This document shows, one piece after another, positions 56,773 to 60,063 of a DNA stretch of 64,000 nucleotides; position 1 is the stretch's first letter; each line of letters opens with the position of its first letter. Source of the stretch: Rhodococcus spelaei (GTDB lineage Bacteria > Actinomycetota > Actinomycetes > Mycobacteriales > Mycobacteriaceae); the NCBI RefSeq assembly GCF_006704125.1, contig NZ_VIGH01000008.1, positions 186,001-250,000 of the forward strand, in the 5' to 3' direction. Position numbers and translations under genes: made by a program. The notes beneath the pieces are model-generated. The model saw only the letters and a list, made by a program, of their open reading frames with translations. It had not been told where the DNA came from and did no database searches.

Positions 56773-56891
56773 GGTCAGCCCATCCCCAGCTCGACCGCCT
56801 TCACGACCAGCAGGATCGCCCCGACGACGAGGTAGCCGCGCAGGGCGAGCATGCCGAGTTTGGTCCCCGACGACCACGAGACGGGTTCGAG
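56773..56891 (-). repeat. Intact nramp 3' end, second copy of the direct repeat flanking plc
   Basis: This segment is the authentic C-terminal coding region of the Nramp gene and is repeated in the same orientation at 54869-54984. The two copies bracket about 1.8 kb that contains only plc and its leader. Confidence 0.9.
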
Positions 56892-58445
56892 CAGGGCGAG
56901 CGGCGGCATCCGCCACTGCGACTTGTCGACCCCGTCGAACTCGACGGCCGGCGCCGGTGCGGCTGCACCCCGAAGCCGCTCGAGCACCTTCACTCCGAGC
57001 ATCGCGGCGCAGGCCACGACGGTCATCGCGACCGCCAGGTCGATCGACACGCTCCGTACGTCGAGGTCGGGGAACAGGGTGGTGGCCATCAGGATTCCCG
57101 AGAGCAGCAGGAGGATCCCGACGATGAGACCGGCCACGATGTTGAGCCAGCGGCGGTTGGCCCAGGGCCCGAGCACCTGCCGGTCGTTGCACAGCAACAG
57201 CAGGAACACCGTGGCGCTGGGCAGCAGCAGTCCGGCGAGCGCCTGGACCGCGGTGGTGATCAACCCGAGCGGCGCCCCCGGGATCAGCGTGATGCCTGCG
57301 GCGAGGGCGATCATCGCGCTGTAGGAGAGGTAGAACTGCTTGGCGTCCTTGAACCCGCGGTGCAGCGAGTGCTTGACACCGAAGACGTCGCCGAACGCGT
57401 AGCTCGTCGACAGCGTGACGGCCGCCGCGCCGACGATCGACGCGTCGAGCAGCACGATCGCGAAGATCGACCCGAGCGTGCTGCTGCTCATGCCGAGCAG
57501 GTGTGCGACCTCACCCGCGTCGACGAAGTCACCGATGGTTCCGGTCGACCGCGCGGCGTAGTCGGCGGTCATCATCAGCGCGGCCGCGCCGATCACCACG
57601 ACCACAGCACCGAGCACGGTGTCGGCCCGTTCGTAGCGGATGAAGCGCGGCGTGATCCGCTTGTCGATGATGTTCGACTGCTGGAAGAACAGCTGCCACG
57701 GCGCCACCGTGGTGCCGACGATCGCGATGATCAGCAGCACCGCGTCCGAGCTCACCCCGCCCTTGATCCCGGGGATCACGAAGTCGCGGGCGGCCTGACC
57801 CCAGTCCGGGTGGGAGAGCAGCAGCATCGGGATCTGTACGACGCTGATCGCGATGAAGACGAACATCGCCCGTTCCCACCGGCGGAAGCTGCCCGACGCC
57901 ATGATCGCGATCAGGGCGACCGCCGCGGTCGGCACCACGATGTACCGCGAGATGCCGAAGTAGCTTGCCACCAAGGAGATTCCGATGAACTCGGTGACGA
58001 TCGTGAGAAAGTTCAGGGCGAACAGGTCGCCCACGCTGAACCAGCCCCAGCCGCGACCGAAGCGCTCGTTGATCAGCCGCGCGTGGCCGACGCCGGTGAC
58101 CGCCCCCAGGCGCACCACCATCTCCTGGTTGACGACCAGCACCGGGATCAGCAGCAGCAGTACCCACAGCAGGGAGTAGCCGTAGTTCTGGCCTGCCTGC
58201 GCATAGGTGGCCACGCCGCCGGCGTCGTTGTCGCCGACCATCACGATCAGGCCGGGACCGACGATCGCGGCCATCGTGAGCAGTCGGGTCTTGAGCGTGC
58301 GGCCGGTGTCGGGGTCGGTGACACTGATCCGGCCGAACGCGCCTTCGATGTCGCCGAGATGCGCGCTGTCGAGCACGGCGGTCCGGCGAGCCTCGGTTCG
58401 GGTGGGTTGTTCCGGTGCGGTGACGACGATCTGGTGCTCAGTCAC
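56775..58445 (-). CDS. Nramp (SLC11) family transporter, atypical and probably Mg2+-specific
   Basis: A 556-residue transporter with about eleven membrane helices and a soluble tail. The first metal-site helix reads VMVGDNDAGGVATYAQAG (residues 69-86) in place of the usual DPGN. The second reads GTTVAPWQLFFQQSNI, so the metal-coordinating Met of classical Mn/Fe Nramps is Ala and the following His is Trp. Loss of that Met is the hallmark described for Nramp-related Mg2+ transporters. The gene starts inside the end of the MgtE-N/CBS gene (GTG 58445 overlapping TGA; GTG 58454 is an alternative). It lies in the same M-box-controlled transcript, which independently points to Mg2+. Its 3' end is duplicated at 54869-54984. 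Confidence 0.88.
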   Translation of the reverse strand: MTEHQIVVTAPEQPTRTEARRTAVLDSAHLGDIEGAFGRISVTDPDTGRTLKTRLLTMAAIVGPGLIVMVGDNDAGGVATYAQAGQNYGYSLLWVLLLLIPVLVVNQEMVVRLGAVTGVGHARLINERFGRGWGWFSVGDLFALNFLTIVTEFIGISLVASYFGISRYIVVPTAAVALIAIMASGSFRRWERAMFVFIAISVVQIPMLLLSHPDWGQAARDFVIPGIKGGVSSDAVLLIIAIVGTTVAPWQLFFQQSNIIDKRITPRFIRYERADTVLGAVVVVIGAAALMMTADYAARSTGTIGDFVDAGEVAHLLGMSSSTLGSIFAIVLLDASIVGAAAVTLSTSYAFGDVFGVKHSLHRGFKDAKQFYLSYSAMIALAAGITLIPGAPLGLITTAVQALAGLLLPSATVFLLLLCNDRQVLGPWANRRWLNIVAGLIVGILLLLSGILMATTLFPDLDVRSVSIDLAVAMTVVACAAMLGVKVLERLRGAAAPAPAVEFDGVDKSQWRMPPLALLEPVSWSSGTKLGMLALRGYLVVGAILLVVKAVELGMG

Positions 58446-59778
58446 GACGATCACCGCGCTCGCGTCCGGTCGCGGCGCCGGCCGCGGGTTCGGTGACGGG
58501 TCGTGGTGCGGGTTCGCGTCGCCGCCAGTCCTCGGGGATGGTCGCCTCGAGTACGTCGTCGACCGTCACCACGCCCAGGACCCGGTCGCTGTCGTCGACC
58601 ACGGGAATGGTCGCCAGGTTGTAGTCGGCCATCAGCAGGGCGACATCGGTCAGGTCGGCGTCGGCCGACACCCGGACGGGGTCGGAGTCCATGAGTTCGG
58701 CGACGGGGACGGCCGGATCGGCCTGCAGGAGGCGGATCACCGAGACGACACCGACCAGTTGCCCCGTCCCGGTCACCACGTGCACCTTCAGCAATGCCTC
58801 GGACTGCATCGACTTTGCGCCGGCGATCACCGAAAGTCCTTGGGCGGCACTGTCGGTGACGCCGCACGACGCGACGTCCACGGTCATCAGACCGCCCGCG
58901 CTCGAGGGGTTGAACCCCATCAGCGTGACGACCTTGGTGCGCTGACCGGGGGGCATGAGCTCGAGCACCCGCCGGCGGCGGGACTGGCGGAGGTCCGCGA
59001 CGGCGTCGGCCGCGTCGTCGGCCTGCATGCGGCCGAGCACGCCCGCCACCTCGGCGTCGGTCATCTCTTCGAGCAGCTTGGTGGCCTTGTCGGGGTCGAG
59101 CTCCTCGAAGACGTCGGCCTCGAGTTCGGGGTGGGTGTGGACGCGGTCGAGGATCTCGCCACCCTCACGCTTGGTGGCGTCCTCGAGCAGGTCGGCGATC
59201 TGGGCGGGCTTGAGCGTGCTCAGTCGTTCGCCCTCCTGCCGCACCTCGACCGACTGGTTGTGACCGATCAGCGGCTCGAACGCCTTCCAGTCGCGACTCG
59301 CCTGTCCGCCTTGGCTCTTGATCAGGCCGAACAGTCGGGCGGGTCGGCGGGTGTCGAGGCGGGCGAGCACCCAGCCTGCGCCGGAGTCCTCGATCTCGAT
59401 GTCGTAGGCCTGGACCAGTTCGGCCGCCGGAACGTCGATGAGGCGGTGGTCGAGGAGGTCGGCGCCGAGCAGGACCTCACCCTCGCGCCGGGCGAATCCG
59501 CGCAGGTCCACCTTGTTCCTGGACAGGTTCACCAGGTCGGGGGTGAGGTCGCTGACCTGGTCGGTCGACAGGTACACCCGGCGTCCTCCCATGTCGACGA
59601 CCAGGCCGGTGACGAGTGGATAGGCGTCGACGCCGCGGAGACGGACGACGACGTCGTCGACGCGACCGACGGTCTCGCCGGACAGGGCGACCACCGGCAG
59701 CCGGCGCAGGCGGGAAAAGTAGACAACCCGGGTACTGCCCGGCGGTGACGTCGACTCGTTCGAATCGAATGTGTTCAT
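58438..59778 (-). CDS. MgtE N-domain/CBS protein without membrane domain
   Basis: A 446-residue cytosolic protein. Residues 15-85 look like a PRC-barrel (VVYFSRLRRLPVVALSGETVGRVDDVVVRL to YLSTDQVSDLTP). Residues about 200-300 are the MgtE intracellular N domain of stacked helices (KPAQIADLLEDATKREGGEILDRV, FEELDPDKATKLLEEMTDAEVAGVLGRMQADDAADAVADL). Residues 305-430 are a CBS pair (LMTVDVASCGVT, VTGTGQLVGVVSVIRLLQAD, LATIPVVDDSDRVLGVVTVDDVLEATIPEDW). These modules bind Mg2+ and gate the channel in true MgtE, but the transmembrane domain is absent. The overlapping Nramp gene suggests it acts as a detached Mg2+ sensor of that transporter. Its 456-base leader carries an M-box. Confidence 0.88.
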   Translation of the reverse strand: MNTFDSNESTSPPGSTRVVYFSRLRRLPVVALSGETVGRVDDVVVRLRGVDAYPLVTGLVVDMGGRRVYLSTDQVSDLTPDLVNLSRNKVDLRGFARREGEVLLGADLLDHRLIDVPAAELVQAYDIEIEDSGAGWVLARLDTRRPARLFGLIKSQGGQASRDWKAFEPLIGHNQSVEVRQEGERLSTLKPAQIADLLEDATKREGGEILDRVHTHPELEADVFEELDPDKATKLLEEMTDAEVAGVLGRMQADDAADAVADLRQSRRRRVLELMPPGQRTKVVTLMGFNPSSAGGLMTVDVASCGVTDSAAQGLSVIAGAKSMQSEALLKVHVVTGTGQLVGVVSVIRLLQADPAVPVAELMDSDPVRVSADADLTDVALLMADYNLATIPVVDDSDRVLGVVTVDDVLEATIPEDWRRREPAPRPVTEPAAGAATGRERGDRRD

Positions 59779-59877: not shown

Positions 59878-59955
59878 TCAGGCGGTGCGGTTGTGGCCGC
59901 GGAAGTGGAACGCGGATGGGTTCGGATCAGGATGCGGACTGTCGCCGGTACTCAC
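59878..59955 (-). CDS. Proline-rich leader peptide ORF, 25 residues, in the Mg2+ riboswitch leader
   Basis: A 26-codon reading frame, GTG (complement of 59953-59955) to TGA (59878-59880), encodes MSTGDSPHPDPNPSAFHFRG then HNRTA. Its Shine-Dalgarno sequence AGGAGGTGA is fully complementary to the 16S 3' end and ends 8 bases before the GTG, far better than that of the MgtE-N/CBS gene downstream. The peptide has prolines at alternate positions (SPHPDPNPS), including a D-P step. It recalls the enteric leader MgtL, whose EPDPTP start destabilises translating ribosomes at low Mg2+. It lies between the M-box/hairpin and mgtE-like coding. Function is inferred; there is no homology evidence that I can compute. 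Confidence 0.65.
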   Translation of the reverse strand: MSTGDSPHPDPNPSAFHFRGHNRTA

Positions 59956-60023: not shown

Positions 60024-60063
60024 AGGGGAGGGGCCCAGGCGAGCACGCCTGAGCGGGCACCCC
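60024..60063 (-). terminator. Candidate expression-platform hairpin of the M-box
   Basis: Directly after the aptamer, a 6-bp stem (CAGGCG/CGCCTG, loop TGCT) is extended by an imperfect GGGG-GCCC / GGGC-CCC outer stem. It is placed where M-box riboswitches form their Mg2+-dependent terminator. There is no U tract. Confidence 0.6.

Follow-up and report, generated by a model that had tools for sequence, protein, structure and literature searches.

An M-box-headed, probable Mg2+-uptake operon of Rhodococcus spelaei pairing an Nramp-related transporter with a soluble MgtE-like protein as its candidate Mg2+ sensor

Most genes of the NrmT group adjoin a gene for a homologue of the MgtE cytoplasmic domain, and many of these pairs are co-transcribed behind an M-box, as described by Shin et al. 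in 2014 (PMC4072509). It was proposed there that the MgtE fragment exerts feedback regulation (gating) on NrmT, a role as metal chaperone was also considered, and the M-box-linked Nramp genes were found mostly in Clostridia and Deltaproteobacteria (PMC4072509). Here we describe a locus of this kind in a window of 64,000 nucleotides from Rhodococcus spelaei (contig NZ_VIGH01000008.1, positions 186,001 to 250,000), in which the gene of a soluble protein, P0002 (the sensor in the following), overlaps the gene of an Nramp-related Mg2+ transporter (NRMT), P0001. The locus is a well-supported operon, probably for Mg2+ uptake, and its kind has been published before. As in the operons of Shin et al., the transporter gene lies beside an MgtE-cytoplasmic-domain gene with an M-box in front; unlike in the accessible text of that paper (PMC4072509), which mentions none of them, we also met a PRC-barrel, a membrane form of the sensor with a dead pore, and a pairing with DUF1003 genes. 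An earlier sequence-only reading of the window had stated that no case of an MgtE-type sensor with an Nramp fold had been described. This does not hold, as both the pairing and the feedback proposal were reported in 2014; what is added here are counts across the phylum, the pore-dead long sensors and the DUF1003 pairing. Judged from the sequences, Mg2+-dependent gating of the NRMT by the soluble sensor appears plausible.

Nramps are LeuT-fold transporters, and the term channel, which the sequence-only reading had used for P0001, is loose in this respect, whereas the assignment as an Nramp-type protein stands (PF01566, 274 bits in Pfam). The motifs noted in that reading on transmembrane helices 1 and 6 (TM1 and TM6), DNDAGG and APWQ, were confirmed in the translation, which reads DNDAGG and TTVAPWQ. 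The published NRMT signature comprises DxxG on TM1, TxxA/T on TM6, the replacement of both TM6 histidines and a retained Glu on helix 3 (PMC8806188). In an alignment to EleNRMT (7qia), P0001 carries both motifs (D77 to G80 and T248 to A251), has W253 and Q258 at the two proton-path histidine places of TM6, and aligns E155 with Glu133 on helix 3. The same structure is its best solved match (phmmer, 9.9e-60 over residues 58-457), followed by another Nramp-family structure at 8.2e-22 and by weaker Nramp chains, and by these E-values P0001 is closer to EleNRMT than to the classical Nramp chains. P0001 thus resembles EleNRMT in its DxxG/TxxA site, in the exchange of the first TM6 His for Trp and in the helix-3 Glu (PMC8806188), and differs from it by about 100 more C-terminal residues. 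In the accessible text of PMC8806188 no partner protein for EleNRMT is given, and the words CBS and operon are absent. Because of the NRMT binding site and the riboswitch upstream we infer that P0001 imports Mg2+, and the Mg2+-transport role which had been suggested for the Nramp paralogue gains support from the signature, from 7qia as the closest chain and from the M-box in front. Covariation of the C-terminal extension with the sensor gene was ruled out, since two loci (L091 and L092) carry the extension without an adjacent sensor. A further Nramp-like gene in the same genome (L087:4060-5331) shows a mixed motif, with DTDAGS on TM1 and AVVMPW on TM6, where Met is kept and His is replaced by Trp.

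Both open reading frames (ORFs) were found where the sequence-only reading had placed them, on the minus strand and overlapping by 17 bases (eight if the GTG nine bases further in is the start). P0002 has no membrane domain in the ORF reading, in Pfam, where no membrane family matched, or in the predicted structure. It therefore lacks the part of an MgtE channel that bears the pore Asp (D432 in TtMgtE), and the TIGR00400 mgtE model scores it at 110.6 bits, under the cut-off of 232.75. Pfam scores the second CBS domain only; the pair was seen via the predicted structure (mean predicted local distance difference test value, pLDDT, 89.1), which matches MgtE cytosolic domains. The fold matches listed for this model are MgtE and CBS chains, include no PRC-barrel entry and are uninformative on the PRC part, which the cytosolic domain of the MgtE channel (2yvy, 2zy9) does not have at its N-terminus. 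The strands of the model, together with a relative that has two PRC stretches (L066), suggest a second barrel-like part at about residues 100-170. No open-access paper was found that names PRC-barrel, MgtE and CBS together.

Residue mapping showed that P0002 keeps both acids of the Mg2+ site which in TtMgtE are D91 (N domain) and D247 (CBS part); by alignment they are D254 and D408 of P0002. These two residues were mutated together in the Mg4 mutant of TtMgtE (PMC5882242). Both are Asp throughout the 26 rows of the sensor alignment, in which one gene occurs twice, and 25 of the rows have an acidic residue at the place of E59 (Mg7). Another ligand could be considered: the CBS pair might read adenine nucleotides or Mg-ATP instead of free Mg2+, so that import would be tied to the energy state. 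The MgtE cytosolic domain has been solved with ATP (5x9g, 5x9h), and these structures rank with the best fold matches of the P0002 model, ahead of several nucleotide-bound CBS pairs. However, the acidic Mg4 pair D91/D247, kept in every aligned row, would be needless for a pure nucleotide sensor, and we hold this explanation to be unlikely.

The leader of the operon contains two elements which the sequence-only reading had missed, the M-box and, ahead of the sensor gene, a predicted upstream ORF (uORF) of 25 codons. The M-box aptamer (145.5 bits, E-value 8.6e-34, gathering score 44, cmscan) covers model positions 1-169 of 169 without truncation and was recovered again by a whole-genome search. 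It is followed by a pyrimidine stretch (CCCCTCCCC), a strong Shine-Dalgarno sequence, the uORF, which begins VSTGDSPHPDPNPS, and the sensor gene. The M-box of pe20 in Mycobacterium tuberculosis has been described as a translational switch with a first Shine-Dalgarno sequence (SD1), a masking stretch, a second Shine-Dalgarno sequence (SD2) and a uORF (PMC12810186). The leader in the window resembles that of pe20 with its uORF2 in that the M-box is followed by an SD1-like stretch, a putative masking stretch, an SD2-like stretch and a predicted short uORF whose seventh residue is Pro, as described for pe20; unlike the pe20 switch, it heads a sensor-NRMT operon (PMC12810186). By analogy, the pyrimidine stretch may mask the Shine-Dalgarno sequence of the uORF, with which the minimum-energy fold pairs it. 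As the leader fold is no stabler than that of shuffled sequences (z -0.69), the masking model rests on the layout and on the published M. tuberculosis case. An intrinsic terminator was sought in the leader, and the only terminator-like match lies upstream of the aptamer.

The same layout recurs in other leaders. Each of the 17 leaders that were aligned has two Shine-Dalgarno-like stretches, one where the aptamer ends and one before the uORF start, and among the 21 M-box leaders scanned, window included, uORF positions 5-7 read Asp-Ser-Pro in 14 and Asp-Gly-Pro in two more. The window peptide begins VSTGDSP, with the Pro at position 7, and was compared with the Rv1805A-type peptide by the description of the latter only. 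The uORF peptide has been termed specific for mycobacteria (PMC12810186); in contrast to this statement, similar uORF starts were found in two Nocardia loci (L161 and L166). A second small ORF (45-71 codons, with a motif like TPQERxNL...AVxxASLGGHP) follows the uORF in nine of the 21 leaders (L091, L092, L110, L118, L157, L159, L161, L171 and L182), and the same scan did not find it in the window leader. Besides, a second M-box of the same genome (contig C12, L086:4186-4358) heads other genes.

Table 1. Features of the sensor-NRMT operon and its leader (window coordinates; aa, amino acids)
Feature	Position	Strand	Description and basis
M-box (ykoK) Mg2+ riboswitch aptamer, RF00380	60232-60054	(-)	cmscan
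Pyrimidine stretch CCCCTCCCC	60025-60033	(-)	minimum-energy fold pairs it with the Shine-Dalgarno region of the uORF
Predicted uORF, 25 codons from GTG (VSTGDSPHPDPNPSAFHFRGHNRTA)	59878-59955	(-)	behind AGGAGGTGAGG; read from sequence
Sensor protein P0002	59778-58438	(-)	446 aa; PRC-barrel-like part, MgtE_N, CBS pair; without membrane segment
PRC-barrel domain, aa 19-73	59560-59724	(-)	PF05239, 23.2 bits, cut-off 21.2
MgtE intracellular N domain, aa 189-291	58906-59214	(-)	PF03448, 71.5 bits
CBS pair, aa 292-412	58543-58905	(-)	PF00571, 59.1 bits for aa 359-412; pair from predicted structure
NRMT P0001	58454-56775	(-)	559 aa; C-terminal extension from about aa 457
TM1 binding-site motif D77-A-G-G80 (DxxG)	58215-58226	(-)	alignment to 7qia; signature from accessible text of PMC8806188
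TM6 motif T248-T-V-A251-P-W253 (TxxA; Trp replaces first His)	57696-57713	(-)	alignment to 7qia

The pairing was followed through 296 genomes of the phylum, in which matches of P0001 were taken at an E-value of 1e-30 or better. This gave 85 Nramp matches in 76 genomes, and at least 55 of the 85 have a sensor match within 3 kb (counted from 110 listed sensor rows, with rows matching the C-terminal part alone left out). At least 51 of these sensors lie upstream and at least three downstream on the same strand, and at least one lies on the opposite strand. Adjacency at this frequency is not due to chance. The gene pair singled out by the sequence-only reading is thus conserved, and its overlap recurs, since the two genes overlap or nearly touch in the closest relatives. 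The M-box, too, keeps company with the transporter, as for 17 of the 27 M-box matches in these genomes an Nramp match is no more than 4 kb away. In the best 80 named loci of 583 relatives a sensor ORF is present in 49, and an M-box stands upstream of the sensor or the transporter in 19 (two pairs with the sensor first, four with the transporter first, and 13 transporters that lack a sensor). These M-boxes were sought with a profile built from 15 known ones, because a regular expression recovered only two of the 15; the profile gave 0 matches on reversed sequences, and two matches downstream of the transporter in L158 were excluded from the upstream count. No ORF of the 80 loci matched both proteins as a natural sensor-NRMT fusion would. 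In a tree of 81 NRMT rows, built by a quick method, the window falls in the starred clade of 22 rows, of which 20 have a sensor and two lie on cut contigs. In one locus (L098:1766-5378) the M-box is situated between the sensor and NRMT genes, where it would control the transporter and not the sensor. Stand-alone ORFs which by eye resemble PRC-barrel repeats, and have no MgtE part, lie downstream of the NRMT gene in L024, L029 and L031.

The origin of the sensor can be approached through its long relatives, as 25 of the at least 55 adjacent sensors have about 200 extra residues. Six long forms were compared with the Pfam MgtE membrane domain: L072 (61.7 bits) and L077 (33.3 bits) score above the cut-off, L070 (23.9 bits) scores below it, and three gave no match. 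L072 aligns with Thermus MgtE through the membrane domain (residues 176-606, 4.9e-81). When 25 linked and 13 unlinked long sensors were aligned with 12 ordinary MgtE proteins of the same phylum, the pore Asp432 was present in 12/12 ordinary MgtE and in 0/38 long sensors, which have no Asp anywhere in columns 428-436; for the least similar membrane domains the position of this column comes from the multiple alignment alone. Likewise, the [GS]GN motif of TM2 occurs in all 12 ordinary MgtE and, as judged by eye, in none of the 38. By comparison D91, D247 and the plug-helix residues E255/E258/D259 are kept in all 38 long sensors, while D91 and D247 are each Asp in ten of the 12 ordinary MgtE. The simplest reading of the long sensors, which the alignment suggests, takes them for former channels that lost their pore function and turned into sensors, and it is possible that they still carry some ion by another route. 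Since Asp432 is lost throughout while D91/D247 persist, the window sensor looks like a pore-dead MgtE that has since lost its membrane part. Two relatives (L084 and L085) end in an apparent single membrane helix (by eye), which the window sensor does not have, and the predicted structure of the long sensor L066 reached a predicted template modelling score (pTM) of 0.34. We would tentatively arrange these forms as intermediate steps, from a membrane domain of MgtE type whose pore is dead through a single membrane helix to none. The pore-dead relatives would in this way give the sensor a testable history and hint at the way in which a channel gave rise to a sensor that can be detached. In the open-access literature, in searches that were not worded for it, a pore-dead MgtE was not met.

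Taken together, Mg2+ uptake by this operon can be envisaged as subject to feedback at two levels, the riboswitch and the sensor protein. At low Mg2+ the M-box leader would permit expression of the operon, as its riboswitch family leads one to expect. The second gene would provide an NRMT importing Mg2+, and the first a cytosolic MgtE descendant that would have lost the pore domain and kept the N and CBS domains, which in MgtE bear the Mg2+ sites that help to close the channel. High cytosolic Mg2+ would bind at the N/CBS interface and compact the sensor, which would then dock to the NRMT from the cytosolic side and block transport; when Mg2+ falls, the sensor would loosen and the transporter would be released. 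What we infer is that sensor and NRMT touch, that P0002 binds Mg2+ between its N and CBS domains, and the direction of the effect, and we lean, with moderate confidence, towards the whole chain from Mg2+ import by the NRMT through Mg2+ binding and docking of the sensor to inhibition at high Mg2+. Since the MgtE fragment was described beside NrmT in 2014, it has been a standing question whether the sensor of a channel is able to act on a transporter with a different fold, and the locus offers for it a compact, soluble and confidently modelled sensor with one clear partner.

Several observations weigh against this mechanism. Two NrmTs of Clostridium transport Mg2+ without need of the MgtE fragment, and co-expression of the partner with the transporter of Acidobacterium capsulatum gave no further rescue (PMC4072509). 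In the window sensor the Mg5 residue D226 is Asn, and the short sensors, P0002 among them, are without the plug-helix acids E258/D259 of the MgtE channel (2yvy, 2zy9), so that the closing mechanism of MgtE cannot have been copied unchanged. The long sensors vary at three positions: of the 38, 30 have an acidic residue for E59 and 31 for D95 (Ala in the other seven), and seven have Asp for D226. Moreover, 27 of the 81 NRMT tree rows, all outside the 22-row clade of the window, have no adjacent sensor; in the inner clade of the window, with 14 rows, the fetched flank shows no M-box for nine of 11 uncut relatives; and at two matches in the window's own family (G150 and G096 contig C8) an M-box is present and the sensor is missing. 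From these counts the sensor is common, not obligatory, and the same is true of the M-box. Finally, full rescue of a Mn2+ transport mutant was obtained with the A. capsulatum transporter, a member of the NrmT group that has an MgtE fragment next to it (PMC4072509), and EleNRMT carries Mn2+ too (PMC8806188), as one would expect if Mn2+, or some other divalent ion, were the main substrate of the transporter and also the ion to which the sensor answered. Yet the window operon is headed by an M-box, a type described as Mg2+-responsive in vivo, whereas the A. capsulatum gene has none (PMC4072509), and the DxxG/TxxA site of P0001 is without a Met ligand. Of the explanations weighed here, we give this one the least credence.

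The question of how far such sensors are tied to the NRMT is also raised by a sister gene. The genome of the window has one further MgtE_N gene, with PRC, MgtE_N and CBS parts (the PRC match just under the cut-off), and this sister sensor overlaps a DUF1003 gene (contig C3, L001:579-2667). Among the listed sensors not near an Nramp match, 39 of 55 have a DUF1003 match at most 1 kb downstream on the same strand, a number which includes one incomplete match that scores below the cut-off at the end of a contig, and excludes two NRMT-linked controls, neither of which had a counting DUF1003 match. The other 16 are 13 long forms in genomes with an Nramp match elsewhere, plus G240, one G198 gene and G203. 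No report of a sensor-DUF1003 pairing was met in the open-access literature. Such a distribution would also suit a soluble protein acting as a Mg2+-dependent adaptor, buffer or assembly factor for several membrane proteins instead of as the gate of the NRMT, and the chaperone role considered by Shin et al. (PMC4072509) is of a similar kind. However, the NRMT-linked and DUF1003-linked sensors are separate genes with partners of their own, which two dedicated sensors would fit equally well, and an adaptor seems to us improbable. With gating of the NRMT as the preferred role, it is conceivable, though we would not yet count on it, that the gating module of MgtE came off its channel and now serves unrelated membrane proteins as a Mg2+-sensing regulatory subunit, the NRMT in the one case and, for the sister gene, DUF1003 in the other. 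If functional, the DUF1003 pairing would offer a clue to a membrane family without known function. In M. tuberculosis, the sister sensor-DUF1003 pair presumably corresponds to Rv1232c and Rv1231c.

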